From contig OZ005692.1 of NCBI GenBank assembly GCA_963930775.1, forward strand, positions 3,396,135-3,460,134: a stretch of DNA of 64,000 nt. Direction: 5' to 3'. Both the position numbers and the translations under genes were made by a program. The first letter of the stretch is position 1; every line of letters starts with the position of its first letter. Below, one piece after another: positions 6,201-57,000 of this stretch. The notes below the pieces were generated by a model. That model worked only from the letters and a program-made list of their open reading frames with translations. It was not told where the DNA came from and did not search any database. The stretch is from Cliona cf. orientalis. Lineage: Eukaryota > Porifera > Demospongiae > Clionaida > Clionaidae.

Positions 6201-6791
6201 CTTCAAAAAGGTAAACTTGAATAATTAATGCATAATAGCTACTTGATCAATCTTTTTATTATCGTCATCATTATCTATATCATTAGCTATCTTGATCCGT
6301 CTAGTCGTTATCATAATTATTATAATTATTGTGATGACAACTATACTATTATGCAGAAAAGGACCCAATCAGATTCAGAACCTCAACATACTTATTCAGT
6401 ACACATGAAGCAGCTTAGAGACAGTCCCATTGAGGATGCAAAGAATTGCACACGAATGGAGAAACAATGGAAAGAGGAATTGAAAGAAACAAGTTGTGAC
6501 CATACTCAACCCACTGAACTGCTTGTCAATGGCAGCTCGGAAAATAATGCCCCACCCTCAACCCCAATGCAAGTTGTTGACCAGGCAGAAAGGATGGAGG
6601 AATTATGTGATCCTCCAATTGCAAACTTATCTAATTCTCCTGTATTCAGTGTGCTCTCCTCTGGACAAACTAGTGGCTATGAGCAAATTCATGGATATGA
6701 GAAAATTCAACATTATGAGCAAATTCAAGGCTATGAAAAGATTCAACCGTATGAGCAAATTCAAGGCTATGAGAAGATTCAACCGTATTGA
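271..6791 (+). CDS. LDL-receptor-like single-pass protein: YWTD propeller, EGF, TM, YExI-repeat tail (9 exons)
   Basis: Exons by GT-AG sites and phase: 271-367, 494-638, 967-1073, 1409-1568, 3919-4352, 4512-4646, 5629-5709, 6083-6210, 6357-6791; total 1722 nt, 573 aa, all in frame. ATG 271 is chosen over the upstream ATG 214 because it starts a hydrophobic signal peptide (residues 1 to about 32). YWSD, YWTD, YWTD, YWGD and YWSD motifs mark an LDLR class B beta-propeller. Exon 6 is one Cys-rich EGF-like module ([14 protein letters not shown] start), exon 7 a Thr/Ser/Pro stalk, exon 8 a TM helix followed by a basic, Cys-containing stop-transfer. The tail of about 150 residues ends in six tandem YExI motifs at six-residue spacing. 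In the LRP/LDLR family the propeller-EGF pair binds or releases ligand at the cell surface; the ligand here is unknown. No LDLR class A repeats are visible, so it is smaller than classical LRPs. The 3' half is duplicated at 27329-28465. Confidence 0.85.
2640..3410 (+). pseudogene. Degenerate non-LTR retrotransposon reverse transcriptase in receptor intron 4
   Basis: Two broken frames keep reverse transcriptase landmarks: [18 protein letters not shown] and FGFKRGLS in the first, then VSNGVRQGG and the catalytic YADD box ([15 protein letters not shown]) in the second. [13 protein letters not shown]-like sequence follows in another frame near 3325-3360. This order matches the RT palm of LINE-type (Jockey/CR1/L2-like) elements. 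Frameshifts and stops separate the pieces, and no endonuclease domain or poly(A) tail is visible, so this is a dead 5'-truncated fragment in the sense orientation of the host gene. Confidence 0.8.
4891..5317. mobile_element. MITE with CAGGGGCGGATCTAGG termini, in receptor intron 6
   Basis: Starts CAGGGGCGGATCTAGGA and ends with the inverted form CCTAGATCCGCCC(A)TG. ACTGTA flanks both sides, suggesting a 5-6 bp target duplication. A G run (about 5236-5262) facing a C run (about 5286-5303) would make a strong hairpin. A second copy is at 44240-44647 and a fragment at 61743-61850. No coding capacity. Confidence 0.7.
6669..6789 (+). repeat. In-frame 18/36-nt coding minisatellite encoding tandem YEQI/YEKI motifs
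   Basis: The last coding exon of the receptor ends in repeats alternating GYEKIQ- and -YEQIQ-type hexapeptides, six YExI motifs in all. YxxI fits both the YxxPhi adaptor-sorting consensus and, when phosphorylated, the pYEEI-like consensus for Src-family SH2 domains. An extra T (…CCGTATTGAGC at about 6786, against CCGTATGAGC in the previous unit) makes the TGA stop; the repeat continues out of frame for about 30 bp beyond it. Confidence 0.8.
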
Positions 6792-13797: not shown

Positions 13798-18547
<4,750 letters not shown>

Positions 18548-18670: not shown

Positions 18671-18679
18671 TAGACTATA
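18671..18679. repeat. Target-site duplication of the MULE, left copy (TAGACTATA)
   Basis: Identical to the 9 bp at 26776-26784. The uninterrupted target would read GGGGTG-TAGACTATA-GATGTT. Confidence 0.9.
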
Positions 18680-18756
18680 GGGAGTATAGATTCAATGGAA
18701 CGGTGGAATGGAATAGTGGAACGGTGGAATGGTGGAATGGTGGAATCGGCCAACGA
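18680..18756. repeat. MULE left terminal inverted repeat
   Basis: Begins GGGAGTATAGATTCAATGG and continues with GGAACGGTGGAATGG and GTGGAATG subrepeats; pairs with 26676-26775. The subrepeats are plausible transposase-binding sites. Confidence 0.88.
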
Positions 18757-19132
18757 CCCTTTACCTCTGTTAGCTCTACGTGCACCAGCCCCTAGCTAGC
18801 TCTTTTTCCGTGGGAGGGGCTGGCACGCGAGACCAGTGTGCATACTAATAATACAATCGCGCGTGCAGTTAATATTGAACAAATTTGATTTGCTACACTT
18901 CTTGGATATAATAAGTTGGACGTATACAGTCCACTGTACATAGCAAACCGCTGCTGTAGTAAGTGCACTTTCATCATACTCGTGGATGCATCGAGATCTC
19001 TCTGTAATATACTTAATCCGCTGCAGTACTAGAATCCAATATCCATGAACATCAGAAACTTAACATAATATTATGCATCAAAAAGTTTAATAATAATATG
19101 CAAACAAGATATCAGAACTGAATACTACCAAC

Positions 19133-19138
19133 TTTATT
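19133..19138 (-). promoter_or_regulatory. Candidate poly(A) signal of the MULE transposase gene
   Basis: AATAAA on the minus strand about 250 bp after the transposase stop codon and inside the element. Confidence 0.3.
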
Positions 19139-19386
19139 CAGTATTATAATGTAAGAGCACAACTTCTAAAATAATCACATTAGTAACTGGAACAAAAATA
19201 CACAATGTCACTGTAGCCACAAAGGTGTAGCTAAACTATAGCAAACTATAATTGTATCAAAAGTTTACGATAGTAAAATTACTACTATAACAAAAAAATG
19301 AGATACTCGGAAGGTTAGGGTTAGGTTTGGGATAACCCACCAAAACTTAATTATTTACTAGAAGAAAATGAGCATTCCTTGCAATG

Positions 19387-22300
19387 TCACAGCCTTCCTG
19401 GCATGTGTTCAGATAAATACTGCGTGTGTGATGGAAGCAGTTGCACAAGCATTGTGGGCGGAATAAGAAGCATTGAACTGTTAAACTGTGGCCACCGTGC
19501 TCGAATACAGGGAATATTACAATGGTAATATACATTCCCATATCGAGTTTGAGGATCTCCTGAGGGTGCTGTAAACTGTTGCCATTCCTGATGTCTCACA
19601 CACAAGTTAAGTGGAGCAAGAGTTGGCTTAGGATACCTTTGTCGACAACCGCGACAAACTCTAATATTCCCAGTGATGAATGCCAGAGTAAAAGGGCTCG
19701 AGTCAGGTGATGTAGATGTACAGCGTATAAGAGGAGGAGGAGGAGGAGGAGGAGGAGGAGGAACAACAGGCATGTTATGATAGGTGACTTCTGTTGGTGA
19801 GTGAATGTTTACCTGTCCAGTAGTCATTACTAAGTTTCCAGGTGTATCCACTGCACTTCCTATTGACAGTGTTACTGCTGCAGTACCACTAGATGTAGTT
19901 GAACTGCTCTCTGTATGCAAACTACTGGATACACCATCAATTGAAGATAATGCCTCTTGGGTCTGAGGTAAGGCACCTGATGCATACTTGCCTTGTGCTC
20001 CTGATACCACCGAGAAAGGAACTCTTGACTCAGGCTGCACTTTTGGTCGTTTCTTGGGAGGAGCTCTTGATCCTTTACGACCACGGCCAGCAGGCATTTC
20101 TGTGGTCGCCAGTTTGGTGATATTGGGGACTTTCTGAGCTTTTGTAAACCATCTGACAAAGAGTAGTAATTCATGATTGTCTTCAGCTGCAGCAACAGAA
20201 TGAGCACAAATGCCGAGTGATCTCCAATTGGGACATTTGTCATCACAGGCATACTGCCCATTTCTTTTACGTATGACTAAATGAGGACGGGATCCCGAGT
20301 AACTTCTGACCATACGAGCATTGTCACCTTGTCCAGGAGCAAGTGAAAGAGAATTGGGTTCCTGCAAGAGGTCAGATGCTTTTTTCCAAATGGCCTTTAA
20401 CACTTCTATCGGTGTAATGACTGATCCACTGAAGTCACTAATAGCTACGGAGAGGTTACTATCAAAACTAGATGAAAATGTAGCACTCTGAGTCCGGTTC
20501 GTTAACCTGACTGCTGATGAAGCATACTGATGACTTGCCAAACTAGTACAAGTTTGAATAGGTGACTGACTAACAGTAGGGCATATGTCACTAGTAATTG
20601 TAGTGCACACAGCAGTGCCAGGCAGAGAATAATCATCACCAAATGGCTGATGTTGCGACCCAAACAAGCGACGGCTACAGGTAGGTCTGTTGTATTCATT
20701 TGGTATCTCAAACTCATCTTGCTGAAATGATACAGATTTCTCCAGGTGCTCACCGCAATGAGTAACTTGTCCATCTGTTAATTGACATTGTGAACCATGG
20801 CTACAGGTAGGCTTACTGCATTGACTTGCTTTGCTACATGCCTCATGTTGAGATGATCCAGAATAGTTATCCAGATATTTGCTAGAAAGGGTTGTTTCTC
20901 TATAGTTAAGTGGATCTGTTGAAATCCGATTCTGTGGTGCTGTTAACCAGTTGTAGTCGTCGCATCGCTTCATTTGAGTTTGATGAGTCTCTTCTGAACT
21001 CTCAGTCAAGTGGATAGAAGATAAATTGGAACAATGAGAAGTTACTGTAACCTTTCTTAGGTTAGCTTTAGCAACTTTTTTTAGATGAGCTTCCCTCTGG
21101 ACACCAGACATTTTCAAGAACCAATCACTCTCTTTCTTCACTAAATACTGAAAATCTGTGCAAAACTCGTACTTTCCACGACCAATAATAGCCCGCTCAA
21201 GTTCTCTCTCTTGCTCATCGATAACTTCCTTCAACTTGTCAAGAAATACACTGAGTTCATGCTTCTTGTAGTCCATTTTGTTCTTTAGCAAGGCATTTAC
21301 ACTCTCACTCGCATTGGTGGTGAATTGTGAGGGAGGATCACCAAGCCCAGCTCTTTGTCTATTACATCGCAGTAGACCCTCCTTTATTGCTGCATTCTTA
21401 TACTGCAAAAGCCACTTAGTGAAGGAACATACTGGACCATCTTCACTTATGTCTAGCGTTTTCCACTTTCCAATTAAGGATTGGAGTCCATTCTCGTACT
21501 GTTGGTCGTTTTCGGCATCAATCAAACCTTCAATATACTGCGATCCCACCTGCTTTCCAAAAATATCACCAAGTATGATTAGCTGCACACTTTCGCTAAT
21601 TCCCATCTCTCGAATTTTTGATTTGATGTTTCGACGAGCATGGATAGTACAGAGCAAATGAACAGCTGAGGGGAAGGAGTGCTTGAATGCCTGGTGCAAT
21701 GCCAGCTCACCATCTGTACCAAATGACTTCAAGTGTGAGAGCTGCGGACGAAGACCGACAAGAGTTGAACTAAAGAAAAGATATGTTGAAAAGGACTTCT
21801 TAAAATGTATCAACACTGGTCCGATGAAGGCAGGATAATTCCTAGTGCGTCTACATTTGAGCATCAGGTGGCGGTACGTAGTTACCGTCACATCAAAAGC
21901 ACCCAAGCTAAAGGTAGGATCAACAGTTAAGATCCCAAACTCAGCATCATCCGTACAGAACCGTACCAAGTCATCTAACTGACGATCAACAGCCACAACT
22001 ATTCCAGGTTCACGGAGAGTCTTCACCTCGCGGATGAAATGTTGGTTGCATTCTTCTAAGTAGGCCTTTTGCATCACTACGGCTAGCTCATCACAAGAAT
22101 TTGCACCAGGAATCACATTTTTCTTTTGCCTTTGTTTCAGATCTGATACTTGCTGCTCATTTCGAGGCAATTCACAAGCGTCTGACGCACATAGCACACC
22201 TCCAACCATGGAGGATACTTCAGATACTACTCGTTTTGGGCCATCTTTGCCAGATTGAAACTTCTCCTTAATCGCAGACATAGTGCTGGGCAAAGTCGGA

Positions 22301-24974
22301 TAGTACGGTTTGTTCTGCTTGCTGTTGCCATGAGGTAAAACTGTTGGTTGAAAATTCTCCGGTAAATAATATGTGACAAGGCAGAGGCGATGGGGATGGT
22401 TATTTCCATCTAATAAAAAAAATTCATTATGGTTAATTACATGCATCATGGCTGAGTTGGTAACCATGTATGCAATATATCAAACAGCCAATCTCAACCT
22501 TTTCAGCTTTGTTTATGCAAACAGGGAATCCAACAAACTGAGGAGTCACCAAAATTAACATCAACCATGTATGCAGTAGTTAGCCAGAATTTTGGGGGGG
22601 GGGGGGGGGGGGGGGGGGGGTGGGTGTGGGAATTACTACTCCATATACTAGAAGAGAGTTCGTAATGGGGGAGAAGCACCCCACCAAATAAACCCCACAT
22701 ACTACAGTATACATGTTTGAATAATCTCATAGAAATCTACACTTCATTATGTGCATATAATATTCAGGAATAAGTTAATCCAACTTGGTCTACCGTAGGA
22801 CTCTGGTCATTCAGAGCTTGCACTTTAATTTCAAACAGTAAGGAAATGTAATACGCTTACATAGTATGAAGAGCTATTTTAGCACCACCCATTAGTCACA
22901 CCCACTTTTCACAACTCGATCTATGCTAGCTAGCACAAATGCTATCAGAAAATGAGCACCATTCACTGAACTACAGTAGTGGGCCATACTCCGAGAAAAT
23001 ATTGTGGGACAACAGTACTATGGGAATCTTCCAGTAATTTATGCATAATTATAATTGCTGAGTCGAAGAGTGTGGTCTCAATCAAATAGTCATGCTATTA
23101 AGCATTGGTACTTAACATCAAGCATCAAAACCATGAAAAGGTATGTTAGTAAATAATCCAAGTATGCAATAATAATATTATACAGCATACTCACCAAAAA
23201 TTATGGCCACAATTCTTCTGAAAGCTTTATTCGAGGGGTGCACACTATGTAGTCGTCTCAGGTAGTAAACATTGGAACCAGAAGCTGCTGAGCTTGCCTT
23301 TTCCACTATCACCTTGTTATTGTCATCAAATGAGCATCGAAATACATCTGTATGGGATCCCTTGTACAACCATTTGCCATACATATCTTTCTTGATATCG
23401 TCTGGGTGGGAGAGCTGAGTAATGTCCACAACAAACGTAGAGGAACAGTGAGTTTGTAGTGGTCTCTGCTTCGCAATCCTGTCTTCATCAATCTTTGGGT
23501 TGAGCAAAATCTGCATAATCTTGAATGCGTAATACTTGGCTGGCGGCTCCTCAAAAATTGGAACTCCATTTAGGGTTCTATAAGGAAACATAATGGAAAC
23601 ATAAGCTTGTTAACAATTCTGATGATCAGCATGCTACTCCGTATTTAATGTTCAACACACTATTTGTTTCGTGCTTCTTACTTTTTAATCTCTTCTTGCT
23701 TGTATTCTATATCCATATCACCTATGGTTGTCAAGTCACTATTACCTGCAAAACAATAATATAATAATATTAATTAACACAATAGTACTAACGAAGCAGT
23801 ATGCCTCTGCACATTGATCAGCCATGCAGTTACTCCTGGACAACCCTCCAATCAGTCAATTGGGGGAAGGGGAGCTACATTTACTATACTTCCTGATAAT
23901 AGGGAGTATCACAGCAAGTATAGTAGCAATGACACTTCAAAACAATTAAATGATACTTTAAACACACACTGACTCTCATTATATTGAAGCCAAAGATTGA
24001 CAATTCTGAGGCCTGAATGAATACCATATAGCCGGAAATATTGGAGAAAATTAAATTTGGTGGTTGAGCCCCAAATCGCTATCACAAGAATATCGGTGGA
24101 TTTAAATTTGGCCGTTCGGTATGGGATTGCCATACGTATATACGCGAGTAGGAAATTTTGGCGGATTTTATTTTGGCGATTGTAAAACCAGACCGCCAAA
24201 TTTAATTCCTCGCCAAATTTCTGGCTATACGGTATATGGCTTGATTGTTATCGAATACTGAGTGTGCTGGCCTAGTATATACTATAAATTGCTGAACAGT
24301 TTATATATTATAGTGGTTTACTTTTATGAACATGGTTTTGACTACGGACCCTCTACTGGAGAGTGGTCATCGTGGCATTAGATGCTCGTTACCATAGAAA
24401 TAATATCAAGCTACAGCTAACTGGTGTCTCCTTTGTCATCTAAGGGGAATTACATCTGCCATTTATTAACCACAAACCACAATGGGACCTCACACTACAA
24501 AGAGCAAAGCTAACCAACTTGCTCACAATAATCCAATAGCAACAATACATACCAGATGAAAGTTTACACGTGTGGGAATACTGGTACTACTGTAACAGAG
24601 GTTTTGCAGTAAATCAATAGTCTAAGACTAGACTTTGAGTTAGTAAAAGCTTTACTAATTGGATTTCTAGACTACAGTACTCATTTTGTGGCCAATAAGG
24701 AGTAGTAGTCCTTTAACCTACCACCTGCAAATCTCTGCAAGGTCTGCACTACTGCAGCTTGCTGGACCTCAATGATAATTGATTTATCTGTACAAACTCC
24801 CACTTGTACTTCTACAAGAAAATTATTTATCTCCACACCACTAAATTACTAGAATCCCACCTCCTTGACAATCATGGTGTACTACCAAACTACCACATCT
24901 GCAACCTCTATAGCACAGCCACAAATAGAGTATGTCTACAATTATGATGACGGTATTGCCAGTGAGCTTCTGTC

Positions 24975-25045
<71 letters not shown>

Positions 25046-25434
25046 ATAACGACATGTCCGAGGCTCTTGCTTCCAGGTTTAATGATAGCCTTGCAATACA
25101 TGACATGTAAGACCTATTGTAGCCAAGTATCAGAAAGCAATAACAAGCTGTATATAGCTATTCAGCTTGATAAGCACTGTCATTCACAGCATACACACAC
25201 TTTGCAGTGCTATCATGACCAACAAGCCTCTGTCAGAATGTGAAAAACAGCTGCAATGTCATAGCAACACATGCACCCTAATTACTGGCAGATAACTATT
25301 TTGTTGGTAGTTGACCTCTGTTCATCATTGGCCTGCTTTAACCCTTCCCATAGCCAGCAAATTGCCTATAAAAACTTTGGTTGCTAAGCAACTACCAACA
25401 AATATGTGTGTGTGCGGGCGCGCGCGCGCGCGCG

Positions 25435-25498
<64 letters not shown>

Positions 25499-26589
25499 AG
25501 GAAAATTTCTGCCAATTAACCTATCTCATAGGAATCAATTAAAAGGGATCAGCCAGGGCACAGATAATACATATTTATGGTCCTGAATCTAGGGTAGCAA
25601 GCCATGCAGCTTTAAGGTCAAGTGATGTAATAATTCTGAATGTGCTATTTAGGAAGCCTATTAATTTCCACTTTTTGGGTCAAGGTGGTGGAGTTCCCAT
25701 AATTATTCTGTTAACCCATATCATTCCCAGTTCTAAAAGCCAGTATCATGATAGTGGCCCAAGAGAGTATTAGCTATGTGTAACTAGCTTTTAGTTACAT
25801 AAAAGATGCACAGTAAACTGAGATACAGTAGCTGGGAGCGTGATCATACAAACTCACAATCATGTACACAAAGCATGTTACACCAGCAGGGTTAGGTATT
25901 AAGAACTACTAATGCACGAGCGGCAGACAAGTTCCTCCCTTACTTTCTATCTTCAAGTTCGAATACATGCACACACAGTACACACGTGAGACCTAATCAG
26001 ATCATTAAACATGCACTTCTGACAATGAGCATTCCTGATCAAACAGTACATGTAAATAGACCAGCTTATATATAAGTCCACTGAATATTAAATAATTACT
26101 AGCAATCTAATAGCCTTAGAAGTAATATCATGCATGCGCACTCCATGACACCTTCCTAGATTTACCCCAGCTGTAGTATTTTATAGATGTACTCACCTTC
26201 GGCAACACTCGAGCTCGTATCCCACTGCATCGCTTCTCTCTCATCTCTCTCCGCTTCGTCATCTGAGAGCTTGTACGCTGTTTCAGAATCGGAATCGCTG
26301 GATTCACAGTCGGATATTGCACCGAGAGTGCGCACAATTCTCCTGTAATTGGGGTAAAGTTTGGTAGCTAATAGTGGAACATGACATTGTACAATATCAA
26401 ATCAAAAGTGCTAGCATAACAAAGATTGTCGTACCTATATCTTTCACCGAGAACCACTTTGACGGGAGAGTCTGGCTGCGGTGGTGTATTAATATCCACT
26501 AAGATGGGATCATTTGCAGTCCCCTGGCCGCCAGTTGCAGTGCGCGTATGAATAGGCGAATCAAGTATCGTATAAATCGTATCCTCCAT
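19387..26589 (-). CDS. MULE transposase with SWIM zinc finger (5 exons, 1256 aa)
   Basis: Exons on the minus strand: 26589-26435, 26342-26197, 23745-23682, 23577-23195, 22409-19387. All introns are GT-AG and phases agree; total 3771 nt. Exons 1-2 are acidic and Ser-rich. Exon 4 carries a block with KKDMYGKWLYKGSHTDVF and YYLRRLHSVHPSN, which I recall from related uncharacterised invertebrate proteins. Exon 5 holds the MULE core: DPTFSLG (Asp about 413), TDGE (Asp about 482), a CTIH (CxxH) motif at 503-506 and NASESVN (Glu about 618), a plausible DDE triad. A SWIM finger follows at 971-986, an NLS-like PPKKRPKV at 1033-1040, a polyproline run at about 1133, and a C-terminal Cys module with GNVYYHCNIPCIRARW. 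The role is cut-and-paste transposition in the nucleus, binding the subrepeat-rich ends. The start ATG lies 186 bp inside the right end. Confidence 0.9.
19732..19762. repeat. (GGA)n tract encoding polyproline in the transposase
   Basis: Ten consecutive GGA units on the plus strand are read as CCT/CCN codons on minus, giving a run of about ten prolines between the SWIM finger and the C-terminal Cys module. Confidence 0.9.
22594..22620. repeat. Poly(G) tract in transposase intron 4
   Basis: 27 consecutive G residues in the intron just upstream of the large last exon. Confidence 0.95.
24021..24235. mobile_element. MITE with ATACC(A/G)TATAGCC ends and AAATTTGGCGG words, in MULE intron 2
   Basis: Left end ATACCATATAGCCGGAAATA; right end, inverted, ATACCGTATAGCCAGAAATT. 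AAATTTGG(C/T)GG recurs in each arm. A transposon nested within the larger transposon. It resembles, at its TACCGTAT start, the MITEs at 29733, 30849 and 47400. Confidence 0.7.
24973..25045. repeat. (CT)n microsatellite
   Basis: About 70 bp of CT dinucleotide with two C-rich interruptions, in MULE intron 2. Confidence 0.97.
25415..25494. repeat. (CG)n-(CA)n compound microsatellite
   Basis: A stretch of CG/GC dinucleotides (about 25417-25436) runs directly into about 55 bp of CA. Alternating purine-pyrimidine sequence of this kind can adopt Z-DNA. Confidence 0.95.
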
Positions 26590-26675
26590 TTTTCTGTCCT
26601 AGTGAAAGAATGGCTGTGGCTGTGTACGGACGTTGATTAAGAGCGCTAGTATGCGCATGCGCAAACGTACGAAGG

Positions 26676-26775
26676 GGGTTCCACCATTCCACTATTCCAT
26701 TCCACCATTCCACCGTTCCACTATTCCATTCCACCGTTCCATTCCATTCCACCGTTCCATTAAATCTATACTCCC
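26676..26775. repeat. MULE right terminal inverted repeat
   Basis: The inverted counterpart of 18680-18756, with an additional GGAATGGAACGGT-type subrepeat. It ends CTATACTCCC, followed by the second TAGACTATA (26776-26784). The transposase promoter must lie between this repeat and the ATG at 26589. Confidence 0.88.
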
Positions 26776-26886
26776 TAGACTATAGATGTTTAGAGTTTCG
26801 TCATACGATTTGAGGGAAAGAATGCCTGTTTAAATTCCATTGGCAATAACATTTTAAAGCATGCAACCCGATTGTTAGATTGCTTT

Positions 26887-26993
26887 ATAGTCTAGCGAGC
26901 TAAGCCCGCTTAGTGGGTGTGGTTTTGAAAGCGCTTTCAAAACCACACCCACTAAGCGGCGAGCGAGAGAGGGTTTAGCTCGCTAGACTATAG
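26887..26993. mobile_element. Near-perfect palindromic fold-back element
   Basis: Arms TATAGTCTAGCGAGCTAA... and ...TTAGCTCGCTAGACTATA meet at GAAAGC/GCTTTC (26932/26933). Each arm holds an AGTGGGTGTGGTTTTGAAAG block. Total about 107 bp; as RNA or single strand it would form one long hairpin. Confidence 0.85.
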
Positions 26994-27328: not shown

Positions 27329-28465
27329 ATATTATCACTGACAGTGCGACCGAGTCAGGGAACTTCAAGTCTTCTACGTCCATATCCACTGTTATAATAA
27401 TAATCTTGGCAGTGTTATTATTTGCTTTATTGGTCATTTCGAAAATCTCTTGCTTGCAATTTATGTACTTCAAAAAGGTAAAAATAATTAATACATGCAT
27501 GATAGCTACATGATCAATCTTTTTATAATCGTCATCATTATCATTATCTTGATCAGTCTTGTCGTTATTGCATCATAAAATTCAACAGGAGTATAGGAGC
27601 GTCCGACTACCGTAGGGCTGGCTGTACTGAGCATGTGTTACGCGAAGTACTTAAGATTACACTTCCTTATTTGGAACGTGCAGCTGGTGTAGTGCACAGC
27701 TGATTATTTTGTACAAGCCACACTGTACTAGCTAATTTACTTAGTCTGTAGTGTGATTGTAGACCGTGCACGGGCGGTGCTATCACTATGGAGATCGGTC
27801 AGAGCTTAAATTTAAATTAATACCCTGCAGCTGGCCACTCCATGGATATAAGGTAAAGCATTACTAATGAACTTTGCCTAACACATCTGACACGCAGTCC
27901 GACGCTCCTTTGCTGCCCTATGCTCCTGAATTCAATAATGACAATTACATGTATAATAATAATTATTGTTATTATGCAGAAAAGGACCCAATCAGATTCA
28001 GAACTTCAACATACTTATTCAGTAGATACGAAGCAGCTTAGAGACAGTCCCATTGAGGATGCACAGAATTGCACACGAATGGAGAAACAATGGGAAGAAG
28101 AATTGAAAGAAACAAGTTGTGACAACACTCAACCCACTGAACTGCTTGTCAATGACAGCTCAGAAGATAATGCCCCACCCTCAACCCCAATGCAACTTGT
28201 TGACCAGGCAGAAAGGATGGAGGAATTGTGTGATCCTCCAATTGCAAACTTATCTAATTTTCCTGCATTCAGTGTGCTCTCCTCAGGACAAACTAGTGGC
28301 TATGAGCAAATTCAACGCTATATGAGAAAATTCAACATTAATATGAGAAAATTCAACATTATGAGCAAATTCAACGTTATGAGAAGATTAAACCGTATGA
28401 GCAAATTCAAGGCTATGAGAAAATTTGGCGTTAATAGTAGACCCTTAGATAAGTTTGGATCGTAG
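27329..28465 (+). pseudogene. Duplicated TM and cytoplasmic-tail exons of the receptor, frameshifted
   Basis: Exons 27329-27477 and 27980-28465 match receptor exons 8 and 9 in sequence, phase and splice sites; the first has a 21-nt in-frame insertion near its start. After SGYEQIQRY an extra base shifts the repeat into the next frame, so the end reads as basic M(R/S)KF repeats ([12 protein letters not shown]) instead of YExI, then KFGVNSRPLDKFGS-stop. No signal peptide, propeller or EGF exons lie upstream; the preceding sequence is a fold-back and then the MULE. It is most simply a truncated duplicate, though use as a terminal exon of another transcript cannot be excluded. Confidence 0.75.
27586..27928. 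mobile_element. MITE (CAGGAG ends), copy 2, inserted in the duplicated receptor intron
   Basis: A reverse-orientation homologue of 15983-16346 flanked by AATTCAA on both sides (27579-27585, 27929-27935). The matching intron of the original gene (about 6310-6350) lacks it, so the insertion came after the duplication. Confidence 0.8.
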
Positions 28466-37443: not shown

Positions 37444-38467
37444 TTAAGGTACCATTAAATTGCGTGGGCGTGAGGTGGGGGATGTGACACATAAACCACA
37501 TCAAAGTCATTAGTGAGGTGCATGTTGTGTAACCACGCCCTTTTAATTGCACAGGTCTCAGGGGTGTGGCTGCTAGAGCCGGAAGTGTTCATTTAATATC
37601 CTCCATGGACCGGAAGCCGAGCCGGAAGGGAGGGGCCAGGCCACGCCCAAAACAGCCCCACCCTGTTCCCCAAGGACCACCATTCTCAATCAAGTGCCTA
37701 CTAACCACCGGATGTCCACCGGAAGCCCACAATCAATCCCAATTAAAACACACAGCTTCCTCAAGGCCAAAACACACACAAACACTTGGAGGCCGTTCTG
37801 CCACACCGCCCACGCAAGAGCTCACCTCATTTCCTGTGTGGGCGGAGTAACAACACGTCATCGCAACCACATCCGCTTCAAACCATCGTCAGCTTCCGTC
37901 CAGCCGTACAGGCCCCTCGATCGCACCGCCGTACAGTGCCTCATTAACAGACATGGCCTCACCTTTGACCTCCTGCCACGCCCCCAAAGCCTCCTCGCGG
38001 GGTTCAAAGGTCACCACCGCTTCCGGGACACGCCCACCTATCGCCGAGGCCAAGTCCCAGGCGCCGATGTCCAAGCACTGGCCCGTGAAGCCACGCCCAA
38101 TCGGAAGCAATAAAACCTGCATTAACGCACACGCACACACTCCACACAGTGCCAGGAACACGCCCACATGCTTAATTAGGCCTAATAAGCTTTTTTTTTT
38201 TTTTTTTTTTTTTTTTTAAGTCGTTGCGGTTAATAGTTAAGAAAGAATGCTTTGATCTTGCTTTGATGTGGGCAATTACCGGCCTTTTCTTCAGGGGCCA
38301 TTTCCGGTCGCTAATTACACGCGCATAATCATCCCTGGCCGATTCTGGACACGCCCACCTTCGACCAAAAGCACTCGTATGGCCTCTTCGGCCACGCCCC
38401 TTCACGATTCGCTAATTGAATTAGCCATTCCTGACGCTCACGCCCACGCAATTAAATGGTACCTTAA
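37444..38467. mobile_element. E element, short form, unit E1
   Basis: TTAA-bounded 1,024-bp unit with inverted ends GGTACCATTAAATTGCGTGG / CCACGCAATTAAATGGTACC. The left about 750 bp and right about 250 bp are separated by a T run of about 25 nt (from 38192). It is packed with CCACGCCC/ACACGCCC motifs. Open frames of 94 and 139 codons recur in all units but resemble no transposase. TTAA target use suggests a piggyBac- or Kolobok-type element mobilised in trans. Confidence 0.85.
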
Positions 38468-38507
38468 GCTTTTTACTATGCCATATACTGTGTACAGTAG
38501 ATAAGTT
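38468..38507. other. 40-bp spacer s1 between E1 and E2
   Basis: Identical, base for base, to 40603-40642 between E3 and E4; starts GCTTTTTACTATGCC and ends AGTAGATAAGTT. Confidence 0.9.
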
Positions 38508-39530
38508 TTAAGGTACCATTAAATTGCGTGGGCGTGAGGTGGGGGATGTGACACCTAAACCACATCAAAGTCATTAGTGAGGTGCATGTTGTGTAACCAC
38601 GCCCTTTTAATTGCACAGGTCTCAGGGGTGTGGCTGCTAGAGCCGGAAGTGTTCATTTAATATCCTCCATGGACCGGAAGCCGAGCCGGAAGGGAGGGGC
38701 CAGGCCACGCCCAAAACAGCCCCACCCTGTTCCCCAAGGACCACCATTCTCAATCAAGTGCCTACTAACCACCGGATGTCCACCGGAAGCCCACAATCAA
38801 TCCCAATTAAAACACACAGCTTCCTCAAGGCCAAAACACACACAAACACTTGGAGGCCGTTCTGCCACACCGCCCACGCAAGAGCTCACCTCATTTCCTG
38901 TGTGGGCGGAGTAACAACACGTCATCGCAACCACATCCGCTTCAAACCATCGTCAGCTTCCGTCCAGCCGTACAGGCCCCTCGATCGCACCGCCGTACAG
39001 TGCCTCATTAACAGACATGGCCTCACCTTTGACCTCCTGCCACGCCCCCAAAGCCTCCTCGCGGGGTTCAAAGGTCACCACCGCTTCCGGGACACGCCCA
39101 CCTATCGCCGAGGCCAAGTCCCAGGCGCCGATGTCCAAGCACTGGCCCGTGAAGCCACGCCCAATCGGAAGCAATAAAACCTGCATTAACGCACACGCAC
39201 ACACTCCACACAGTGCCAGGAACACGCCCACATGCTTAATTAGGCCTAATAAGCTTTTTTTTTTTTTTTTTTTTTTTTTTAAGTCGTTGCGGTTAATAGT
39301 TAAGAAAGAATGCTTTGATCTTGCTTTGATGTGGGCAATTACCGGCCTTTTCTTCAGGGGCCATTTCCGGTCGCTAATTACACGCGCATAATCATCCCTG
39401 GCCGATTCTGGACACGCCCACCTTCGACCAAAAGCACTCGTATGGCCTCTTCGGCCACGCCCCTTCACGATTCGCTAATTGAATTAGCCATTCCTGACGC
39501 TCACGCCCACGCAATTAAATGGTACCTTAA
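38508..39530. mobile_element. E element, short form, unit E2
   Basis: Nearly identical to E1, in the same orientation and TTAA-bounded. It shares the E1-type variants (ATTTAATATCC, GTCAGCTTCC, GGCCATTTCC). The flank after its right TTAA is the remainder of the X2 inverted end. Confidence 0.85.
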
Positions 39531-39580
39531 TGCACCTGAGCAGCCTTATTACTGGCTTAAAACTGTATTATATCATTAGA
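39531..39580. other. 50-bp spacer s2 (X2 terminus plus original host sequence)
   Basis: Begins TGCACCTGAG, the outer part of the X2 right end, then about 40 bp of unique sequence up to the next TTAA. Confidence 0.8.
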
Positions 39581-40602
39581 TTAAGGTACCATTAAATTGC
39601 GTGGGCGTGAGGTGGGGGATATGACACCTAAACCACATCAAAGTCATTAGTGAGGTGCATGTTGTGTAACCACGCCCTTTTAATTGCACAGGTCTCAGGG
39701 GTGTGGCTGCTAGAGCCGGAAGTGTTCATTTGATATCCTCCATGGACCGGAAGCCGAGCCGGAAGGGAGGGGCCAGGCCACGCCCAAAACAGCCCCACCC
39801 TGTTCCCCAAGGACCACCATTCTCAATCAAGTGCCTACTAACCACCGGATGTCCACCGGAAGCCCACAATCAATCCCAATTAAAACACACAGCTTCCTCA
39901 AGGCCAAAACACACACAAACACTTGGAGGCCGTTCTGCCACACCGCCCACGCAAGAGCTCACCTCATTTCCTGTGTGGGCGGAGTAACAACACGTCATCG
40001 CAACCACATCCGCTTCAAACCATCGTCGGCTTCCGTCCAGCCGTACAGGCCCCTCGATCGCACCGCCGTACAGTGCCTCATTAACAGACATGGCCTCACC
40101 TTTGACCTCCTGCCACGCCCCCAAAGCCTCCTCGCGGGGTTCAAAGGTCACCACCGCTTCCGGGACACGCCCACCTATCGCCGAGGCCAAGTCCCAGGCG
40201 CCGATGTCCAAGCACTGGCCCGTGAAGCCACGCCCAATCGGAAGCAATAAAACCTGCATTAACGCACACGCACACACTCCACACAGTGCCAGGAACACGC
40301 CCACATGCTTAATTAGGCCTAATAAGCTTTTTTTTTTTTTTTTTTTTTTTTTAAGTCGTTGCGGTTAATAGTTAAGAAAGAATGCTTTGATCTTGCTTTG
40401 ATGTGGGCAATTACCGGCCTTTTCTTCAGGGGCCACTTCCGGTCGCTAATTACACGCGCATAATCATCCCTGGCCGATTCTGGACACGCCCACCTTCGAC
40501 CAAAAGCACTCGTATGGCCTCTTCGGCCACGCCCCTTCACGATTCGCTAATTGAATTAGCCATTCCTGACGCTCACGCCCACGCAATTAAATGGTACCTT
40601 AA
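39581..40602. mobile_element. E element, short form, unit E3
   Basis: TTAA-bounded, same orientation. It carries a second set of variants (TTTGATATCC, GTCGGCTTCC, GGCCACTTCC, GGATATGACAC) shared with E4 and not with E1/E2. Confidence 0.85.
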
Positions 40603-40642
40603 GCTTTTTACTATGCCATATACTGTGTACAGTAGATAAGTT
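40603..40642. other. 40-bp spacer s1, second copy, between E3 and E4
   Basis: Identical to 38468-38507, which shows that E-s1-E exists as a duplicated block. Confidence 0.9.
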
Positions 40643-41664
40643 TTAAGGTACCATTAAATTGCGTGGGCGTGAGGTGGGGGATATGACACCTAAACCACAT
40701 CAAAGTCATTAGTGAGGTGCATGTTGTGTAACCACGCCCTTTTAATTGCACAGGTCTCAGGGGTGTGGCTGCTAGAGCCGGAAGTGTTCATTTGATATCC
40801 TCCATGGACCGGAAGCCGAGCCGGAAGGGAGGGGCCAGGCCACGCCCAAAACAGCCCCACCCTGTTCCCCAAGGACCACCATTCTCAATCAAGTGCCTAC
40901 TAACCACCGGATGTCCACCGGAAGCCCACAATCAATCCCAATTAAAACACACAGCTTCCTCAAGGCCAAAACACACACAAAAACTTGGAGGCCGTTCTGC
41001 CACACCGCCCACGCAAGAGCTCACCTCATTTCCTGTGTGGGCGGAGTAACAACACGTCATCGCAACCACATCCGCTTCAAACCATCGTCGGCTTCCGTCC
41101 AGCCGTACAGGCCCCTCGATCGCACCGCCGTACAGTGCCTCATTAACAGACATGGCCTCACCTTTGACCTCCTGCCACGCCCCCAAAGCCTCCTCGCGGG
41201 GTTCAAAGGTCACCACCGCTTCCGGGACACGCCCACCTATCGCCGAGGCCAAGTCCCAGGCGCCGATGTCCAAGCACTGGCCCGTGAAGCCACGCCCAAT
41301 CGGAAGCAATAAAACCTGCATTAACGCACACGCACACACTCCACACAGTGCCAGGAACACGCCCACATGCTTAATTAGGCCTAATAAGCTTTTTTTTTTT
41401 TTTTTTTTTTTTTTTTGTCGTTGCGGTTAATAGTTAAGAAAGAATGCTTTGATCTTGCTTTGATGTGGGCAATTACCGGCCTTTTCTTCAGGGGCCACTT
41501 CCGGTCGCTAATTACACGCGCATAATCATCCCTGGCCGATTCTGGACACGCCCACCTTCGACCAAAAGCACTCGTATGGCCTCTTCGGCCACGCCCCTTC
41601 ACGATTCGCTAATTGAATTAGCCATTCCTGACGCTCACGCCCACGCAATTAAATGGTACCTTAA
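40643..41664. mobile_element. E element, short form, unit E4
   Basis: TTAA-bounded, E3-type variants. Its right flank (GACTGGTTTCCGCTGGG) is unique host sequence upstream of the death-domain gene. Confidence 0.85.
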
Positions 41665-54015: not shown

Positions 54016-57000
54016 TTAAGGTACCATTTAATTGCGTGGGCGTGAGCGTCAGGAATGGCTAATTCAATTAGCGAATCGTGAAGGGGCGTGGCCGAAGAGG
54101 CCATACGAGTGCTTTTGGTCGAAGGTGGGCGTGTCCAGAATCGGCCAGGGATGATTATGCGCGTGTAATTAGCGACCGGAAGTGGCCCCTGAAGAAAAGG
54201 CCAGTACTTGCCCACATCAAAGCAAGATCAAAGCATTCTTGCTTAACTATTAACCGCAACGACAAAAATTAAACACTAAGTAGTTATACACTAAGTATAT
54301 AGAAAAATAATTCACAGGGGAGTTGAGAGCACTTGGGGAGATAATTTTTATATTGGCACGCAGAATGGGTTGAAATTAGAAATTTGACCTTGGGAAATTT
54401 TGATTCACGCCTTAGAATTAAAGTTATGGCCCTTTGAAGTTATCCCATATGTTTGTATAGGAAGCCATGCGTTTGCAATGTTTTGAGTCCCGGTGTGCGT
54501 TATTTAGAAAATCGCTAGGCCAGTACATGTATAGCACCTGGTAGCATATGCAGAGGCTTGCTGAATGGATGAAGAATCAACCACAATAGTAGATCTCTCT
54601 TTTTTGCTGAGAGGTAGGTGGTATAATACAGCTATACTGAGTTTTACATTGTGCATGCATGAATGTGTGGGAAAGCTGAGAAATATAACTAAAATTATTT
54701 TGTGCTTTTCCCCTAGCCTTGTGTGTGTGCTGTGGTGATCTTAAGTACTAGTAGGAAGTAATGTGTTGCTGGAGCCACTGCTACTGAACCTCAATTATGA
54801 ATAATGCTGATCATATACTCTGGGCTCTACTTGTCTCATGCCCAGCCCCCTTTCACGCATGCGGAGAGAAGGGGTCTGGCCAAACGTGTATAGGGCCCGT
54901 GTCGCCTGTGCAACATACAGTGCGCGCCAATCAGACGCACGGATCAAGTCACATGATTGCACGGGCATGAACAGAATGCACATTAATGAATGATTGTGCG
55001 CTTGCGCATTCGTACGAAATATAGCCATCGGTATCCAAACGAATGTTAATTTATTCGCGTTTCGTATTCACGCACACCATGAATACGTGACGGCATACAT
55101 TCCTCGGCAATACGGGCCCTATACACGTTTGGCCAGATCCCTTCTCTCGTGAATGGGGGCTGGGTGCGAGACTAGGGCTCTACTAGGAGTTTAATTCTTC
55201 TATTTTTATGGCTCTCCTATATGCATTCCACCAGTACTTTGTGGTGCTTTCTGGACAATTATTTTTTTTCTGCTTAGTGTATCGGCTTGCTTGTTATACA
55301 CTAAGTAGAAAAAAATATAGAAAAATAATTCACAGGAGGATTGGGAGCATCTGGGGCTGTAATTTTTATACGGGCACGCAGAATGGGTCGAAACTAGAGA
55401 TTTGACCTTGGGGAATTTTGATTCACGCCTTAGAATTAAAGTTACGGCCCTTTTAAGTATCCCCATATGTTTGTATAAGAAGCCACGCAGTTGCAATGTT
55501 TTGAGTCCCGGTGTGCGTTAATTAGAAAATCGCTAGGCTAGTACATGCATAGGCTACCATGCAGCTGGTATTGTATCCAGAGGCTTGTTGAATGGATGAA
55601 GAATCAGCCACAGCAGTAGCTCTCCCATTATGCTGAGAGGTAAGTGGCGTAATACAGCTATAGTTTTACATTATGCATGCGTAGATGTGTGGGAAAGTAC
55701 ATGGAGTTGAGAAACAACTAAAATTGTTTTGTGCTTTTCCCCTAGCCTTGTGTGTGTGCTATGGTGATTTTGAGTACTAGTAGGATGTAACGTGTTGCAG
55801 GGGCCACTGGTACTGAACCTCAATTATGGCATTCCACCAGTACTTTGTGGTGTTTTATTTTTTTCTGCTTAGTGTATCGGCTTGCTTGAAAAAAAAAAAA
55901 GATTTTTAATTAATTATTAATTCAGGGGGGAACTGAGAGCACTTGGGGACATAATTTTTGCACCGGCGCGCAGAATGGATCGAATGCAGAGATTTGACCT
56001 TCAGGAATTTTGATTCACGTCTTAGAATCAAAGTTACGGCCCTTTGAAGTTTCCCCATATGTTTGTACAGGGAAGCCATGCGTTTGCAATGTTTCCGCCC
56101 ACGCGCTACGTGAGGGGCGGGGCCACGCGCGCACATAAACGTGACGACCTTTACCAAATTAAAAAAAAAAACAAAAAAAAACTGAAATTTAGGCTGCCTG
56201 CTTGCATTGTATGGTTCCACTATGCACCCAGCTCGATTATATGGTGGTTTTTGGACAATTTTTTTTCTGCTTAGTGTTCAGGTCGCCTTGAAAAAAAAAA
56301 AAAAAAAAAGCTAATTAGGCCTAATTAAGCATGTGGGCGTGTTCCTGGCACTGTGTGGAGTGTGTGCGTGTGCGTTAATGCAGGTTTTATTGCTTCCAAT
56401 TGGGCGTGGCTTCACAGGCCAGTGCTTGGACATCGGGGCCGGGGACGTGGCTGCGGCGATAGGTGGGCGTGTCCCGGATGCGGTGGTGACCTTTGAACCC
56501 GTCCAGGAGGCTTTGGGGGCGTGGCAGGAGGTCAAAGGTGAGGCCATGTCTGTTAATGAGGCACTGTACGGCGGTGTGATCGAGGGGCCTGTACGGCTGG
56601 ACGGAAGCTGACGATGGTTTGAAGCGGATGTGGTTGCGATGACGTGTTGTTACTCCGCCCACACAGGAAATGAGGTGAGCTCTTGTGTGGGCGGTGTGGC
56701 AGAACGGCCTCCAAGTGTTTGTGTGTGTTTTGGCCTTGAGGAAGCTGTGTGTTTTAATTGGGATTGATTGTGGGCTTCCGGTGGACATCCGGTGGTTAGT
56801 AGGCACTTGATTGAGAATGGTGGTCCTTGGGGAACAGGGTGGGGCTGTTTTGGGCGTGGCCTGGCCCCTCCCTTCCGGCTCGGCTTCCGGTCCATGGAGG
56901 ATATTAAATGAACACTTCCGGCTCTAGCAGCCACACCCCTGAGACCTGTGCAATTAAAAGGGCGTGGTTACACAACATGCACCTTACTAATGACTTTGAT

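Follow-up and report, generated by a model that had tools for sequence, protein, structure and literature searches.

The locus considered here raises the question of whether some 8.1 kb of chromosome 4 of Cliona cf. orientalis, situated within a window of 64,000 nucleotides (the whole stretch of DNA that was analysed), constitutes a transposon that has moved in the recent past or a gene of the host that has long been fixed in its place. The results lead us to conclude, with near certainty, that it is a complete and probably autonomous Mutator-like (MULE) DNA transposon, and one that has recently moved. The kind of element is a known one; what is new is a long, intron-bearing member from a sponge, with recent mobility. 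MULEs are strong mutagens. According to a 2019 study of their diversity (PMC6446971), knowledge of them in animal genomes is very limited.

The element proper extends from 18680 to 26775 (8,096 bp), and both of its flanks carry a perfect 9-bp target site duplication, TAGACTATA (18671..18679 on the left and 26776..26784 on the right, neither having a strand). The initial annotation had placed an intact 8.1-kb Mutator-like transposon at 18671..26784, which limits proved to be exact with the duplications included, and the ends and the perfect TAGACTATA pair that it described were confirmed. At both termini GGGAGTATAGATT stands in inverted orientation, and the terminal inverted repeats (TIRs) are built of TGGAAYGG-like units: the left one (18680..18746, plus strand, about 67 bp) starts with GGGAGTATAGATTCAATGGAACGG and contains short TGGAAYGG-type repeats, while the right one (26686..26775, minus strand) measures about 90 bp with its repeat units included, the difference in length residing in those units. 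When the two ends are compared in inverted orientation, their first 13 bases are identical; beyond that point the right end has an 18-bp repeat unit that is absent from the left, after which a single mismatch precedes about 47 bases of perfect inverted match. The left end is shorter by one 18-bp unit than the element's own right end, and likewise than the left end of the closest copy, on chromosome 1. MULEs are recognized by a target site duplication of 8-11 bp together with TIRs, and the element has both.

On its minus strand the element carries a putative transposase gene, whose frame, under the predicted splicing, runs through five exons with GT-AG joins and comprises 1,256 codons with zero internal stops, so that the uninterrupted five-exon, 1256-aa transposase first described was recovered. 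Exon 1 (26435..26589, minus strand, with the start codon at 26589), exon 2 (26197..26342, minus strand), and exon 3 (23682..23745, minus strand) all have matches in the other three full-length copies of the family, those of exon 1 being at 93-100%; these three exons are thus supported by splice signals and by close copies, there being beyond the family only two weak N-terminal matches (E 0.04 and 0.10). Exon 4 (23195..23577, minus strand) is supported by the splice-joined frame and by a match at C1:12.03M, in a relative that is 60% identical. There the exon 4 match (66% identity) begins at residue 122, which position is the predicted start of that exon, and precedes the exon 5 match by about 2.6 kb, a gap that supports the existence of an intron between the two; the exon 4 query stopped at residue 250, where both queries met, so that the comparison bears on the start of exon 4 and on the presence of the intron. 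The ends of the relative were not found in the 3.7 kb before its core or in the 3.5 kb after its finger. Exon 5 (19387..22409, minus strand, stop included) encodes the D-D-CxxH-E core and the CX3CX8CXH finger, as well as a run of prolines and, toward the C terminus, a stretch rich in cysteine. Within intron 2 lies an imperfect inverted repeat (24021..24235; arms 24021-24064 and 24192-24235, 77% complementary) that is perhaps an older, nested MITE-like insertion. Elsewhere in the genome, at C2:4697694-4698050, we observed a related end followed by a weak match to transposase exon 1 (E 0.04), which locus is perhaps a deleted or an undescribed sister element.

The hallmark of the MULEs is a DDE core with a CxxH between the second D and the E, and the initial annotation had read a DDE-like core with such a motif in this protein. 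A genome search with a 454-residue core gave at least 96 matches—many of these being fragments of one element—and we aligned the window core with 14 relatives picked for length and the absence of stops. In all 15 of these sequences D163, D232, H256, and E368 (window numbering) are invariant, with C253, in the CTIH motif, being nearly so, and the reading of the core is accordingly upheld. At E <= 0.1 the Pfam MULE profile (PF10551) matched 13 of the 15 family members, the best at 6.4e-8; the window protein itself stayed below the curated cut-off, with 18.4 bits for the core and 15.7 for the whole protein vs. the 27.6 of that cut-off. The bacterial Transposase_mut profile (PF00872) gave a match in 7 of the 15. 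Six comparisons with the window core yielded pN values of 0.27-0.41 and saturated pS values of 0.81-0.88, and two pairs of relatives gave 0.17-0.19 and 0.82-0.83, respectively: the low pN indicates past constraint on the protein, but with pS saturated the two values provide no usable ratio.

The C-terminal finger has the form CX3CX8CXH in all 21 sequences compared (the window plus 20 relatives fetched from 95 matches). The canonical SWIM zinc finger is CXCXnCXH; since its CXC spacing does not occur here, "SWIM-like" is the better name. Of the SWIM finger first claimed, then, the cysteine finger itself stands, whereas the canonical spacing does not, and no match of exon 5 to the Pfam SWIM profile was listed at E <= 10, in a search whose filters drop most weak matches. 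Likewise, a search with the 1,256-aa protein at E <= 1 listed no match to FLYWCH. A single-sequence AlphaFold2 model of a 460-residue core had a mean pLDDT of 35 and says nothing on an RNase H-like fold, while a comparison by sequence with solved structures found none for the core (E <= 1) or for the profile (E <= 10). One scan of viral contigs, sensitive to close relatives only, found no relative.

The initial annotation had named the lack of any further copy with the same ends as an outcome that would refute the transposon reading. The search did not bear this out: copies that share the ends of the element, each with a 9-bp duplication of its own, were found genome-wide. In the 216.8 Mb searched (149 contigs) the 13-base end motif had 13 exact matches against the 1 of a reversed-pattern control, a difference indicating that the motif is not a product of chance. 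Eight of those 13 matches pair, in the correct orientation, into four elements of 8,096, 8,094, 8,668, and 15,305 bp; and all four are bordered by duplications that are perfect and mutually different (TAGACTATA, GTGATAAGC, AACATAATA, and CTCAACTCA). Among the five unpaired matches, one (L046) has a related end, and the other four continue into unrelated sequence. The intron piece 25500-26196 (697 bp), which was the piece searched for captured host sequence of the Pack-MULE type, has genome matches in those four family copies only, and this confinement indicates, within the limits of the search, that the family proper comprises few copies.

Over 8,059 aligned bases the chromosome 1 copy (8,094 bp) and that of the window show 6 substitutions, of which the BLAST alignment counts 5 as mismatches, along with eight length changes, several of which are in simple repeats. 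One of the substitutions is coding, and one 6-base change shortens the polyproline run, the frame of this copy being open over 1,254 aa. The two copies stand in unrelated surroundings: between about 1 kb per side of the window copy and about 0.7 kb per side of that on chromosome 1 the comparison gave only two 14-base matches, at chance level. The presence of a near-identical copy at an unrelated locus supports a recent movement. The other two end-paired copies are decayed, with stops in their transposase matches, and the 15.3-kb one is in addition broken by extra DNA; as the near-identical copies found are two only, any burst of transposition must have been small.

A further line of evidence comes from a site without the element. 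With the two flanks joined over a single TAGACTATA as the query, we recovered C4:3646452-3646661, a locus 91% identical and continuous across the junction, which is a paralogue of the start of the neighbouring monooxygenase locus and lies about 0.23 Mb from the window site. When the comparison was lengthened, it gave two pieces, each at about 90% identity (564 and 475 columns), which together span the left flank, the junction, and about 350 bp of the right flank; between those pieces, in the left flank, stand about 155 bp peculiar to the empty locus, and further to the right the collinearity is lost. Within the target the empty locus reads GTAGACTA--GATG vs. GTAGACTATAGATG in the joined flanks, a difference of 2 bp. 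Judged by its sequence, C4:3646452-3646661 looks as an unoccupied site should, within the limits that this 2-bp difference sets and that it is a paralogue, not an allele. To the right of the element lies a palindromic repeat whose ends are of the TATAGTCTAGCGAGC type (26886..26992, no strand); it is multi-copy, with 84 genome matches, many of them counted in both orientations; the same repeat is found beside the empty site, and is therefore probably older than the duplication of the locus.

The copies with shared ends, the empty paralogous site, and the near-identical second copy all support the transposon interpretation with which we began, and the alternative that best survives them is a narrower version of that same explanation, compatible with it: that the MULE moved recently and is now silent. 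The near-identical pair would then be the final insertions to have come from an earlier source, and the window copy would either lack a working transposase or be repressed by the host. To this possibility we assign a little less than an even chance. It finds support in the detection of two near-identical copies and no more, in the one 18-bp repeat that the window copy lacks at its left end relative to the chromosome 1 copy, and in the example of Muta5, which has three identical copies and of which a derivative was nevertheless immobile in yeast (PMC5225508)—a precedent implying that near-identity alone is no proof of activity. The open frame, the wholeness of both ends and both duplications, and the mostly non-coding nature of the differences between the two near-identical copies all weigh on the other side. 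Present-day activity of the window element is plausible, if unproven.

By contrast, we consider it very improbable that the locus is a host gene domesticated from a MULE transposase. A long intact frame with introns and the protein constraint in the family would be as expected of such a gene, but the ends and the 9-bp duplications are still present, a near-identical second copy resides elsewhere amid unrelated flanks, and the same genome contains a paralogous locus without the element, which circumstance speaks against an old host gene; on account of that empty site and that second copy the host-gene reading was rejected. Still less credible is a spread of the copy by segmental duplication or through an assembly artefact in place of transposition, which the near identity of the two copies could suggest and which we rejected because their tested flanks are unrelated and their 9-bp duplications differ.

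If the element is the recently moved transposon that we propose, its minus-strand gene would give rise to a spliced transposase whose cysteine-finger regions, by analogy with other MULEs, may bind the TGGAAYGG-type end motifs. By the same analogy, the protein would bring the two ends together and carry out the cutting and rejoining of the DNA by means of an Asp-Asp-Glu site, and insertion into 9-bp staggered cuts would produce the 9-bp duplications. For the window element itself, we infer the splicing, the function of the protein, the cut-and-join chemistry, and the autonomy. With a whole and recently moved copy, a paralogous locus that lacks it, and RNA (ERR13669944) and long-read data on record under the specimen label odCliOrie1 (PMC12639293), present activity can be tested directly in this demosponge, an early-branching animal.

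Among the described MULEs, the Muta families (PMC5225508), of which Muta1 of Aedes aegypti is reported to be active in a yeast assay, resemble the window family in having near-identical copies and in the size of their duplications (8-9 bp in Muta and 9 bp here). With Muta5 the element shares, as that report describes it, short tandem motifs in the ends—in Muta5 a 15-bp subterminal repeat occurs nine times—along with predicted introns (3 exons in Muta5, five in the window element); nevertheless, Muta5 measures 3.5 kb with a transposase of 554 aa vs. the 8.1 kb and 1,256 aa found here (PMC5225508). A further difference is that an N-terminal FLYWCH is reported for 13 of the 14 Muta families and a C-terminal SWIM for Muta6 (PMC5225508), whereas the present transposase has the C-terminal CX3CX8CXH.

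Dupeyron et al. (2019) distinguished 50 MULE lineages, for example Phantom, Ghost, Curupira, and MULE-Co (PMC6446971), and the window element lies within the ranges given there for the TIRs (14-500 bp) and for the target site duplications (8-11 bp), in addition to having a DDE transposase, as do those lineages, some groups of which have a SWIM finger. In the Phantom MULEs (group 20) the finger is stated to be none, FLYWCH, or SWIM (PMC6446971), so that the missing FLYWCH match does not exclude Phantom. The words sponge, Porifera, and Amphimedon are absent from the main text of that study (PMC6446971). In the arthropod MULEs, as reported in PMC13359780, elements of 1.4-10.0 kb similarly combine a DDE transposase with a zinc finger, and recent activity was inferred from low divergence; most of those elements measure 2.5-5.0 kb, so that the window element is longer than most while inside the full range, and its 1,256-aa transposase exceeds the 313-1,136 aa of their complete elements. 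MULE-derived FHY3 factors were reported in the sponge Amphimedon in 2023 (PMC10027918), and MULE-derived proteins in sponges are therefore not new. Of the papers that the literature searches listed, none concerned the window element, as judged by title; an entry for it in Repbase is possible.

Recent movement in this genome is probably not confined to the window family. In another MULE family the cores at C1:25056298, C5:5511689, and C10:2189527 are 100% identical over 1,260 bases, with that at C7:1330242 being 99.9% identical, and in a further transposase family three cores are 99.5-99.9% identical, the near-identity in each of those families pertaining to the cores compared. Elements of 1.1-1.3 kb, for their part, have end repeats in common with the window element, starting with GGGTGTCTAGATT or a close variant. 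We cut out 30 loci with related ends; the four full-length copies account for 8 of these, and the other 22 were inspected. Both ends were present in 6 of the 22; two of those six elements have a perfect 9-bp duplication, one more has it after a one-base shift of the border, another has it with a single mismatch, and the remaining two have none.

The site of insertion may itself be of consequence. A putative first coding exon of a flavin-monooxygenase-like gene (18378..18541, minus strand) has its start codon at 18541, and the left end of the element thus lies 138 bp upstream of that codon, with the transposase and the putative monooxygenase being on the same strand. The downstream piece 13801-15018 matched the flavin-monooxygenase profile PF00743 with an E value of 3.8e-33, and we infer that this piece and the exon belong to one gene. 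With the site at so short a distance from the putative monooxygenase start, and with an uninterrupted paralogue in the same genome, an effect of the insertion on expression is testable. We would put forward tentatively, as a proposal that we judge somewhat more apt to fail than to hold, that the window element represents a large undescribed lineage of sponge MULEs, distinguished by the CX3CX8CXH finger and by a transposase that is very long and rich in introns, and that several families of this lineage are at present mobile in Cliona, with promoters at times among their targets, so that genes like the monooxygenase next to the element may be altered in their expression.

With respect to the distribution of the transposase-core matches, chromosome 1, which makes up 17.3% of the genome, contains at least 61 of the 96, some elements being counted several times, as well as at least 28 of the 33 that bear stops; this chromosome, by far the longest, gives the impression of a place where old MULE copies accumulate. 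The window also contains other repeats. At 37577-41427 four units spaced at about 1.06 kb each have an open frame of 178 aa (SRKCSFNILHGPEAEPEGRGQ...) and are each followed by a T run, with a further copy of the unit at 56314-56923 on the opposite strand; and two similar open frames, at 27857-28462 and 6225-6788, constitute a repeat whose members lie about 21 kb apart, the former frame having MRKFN/MSKF-type repeats at its end.
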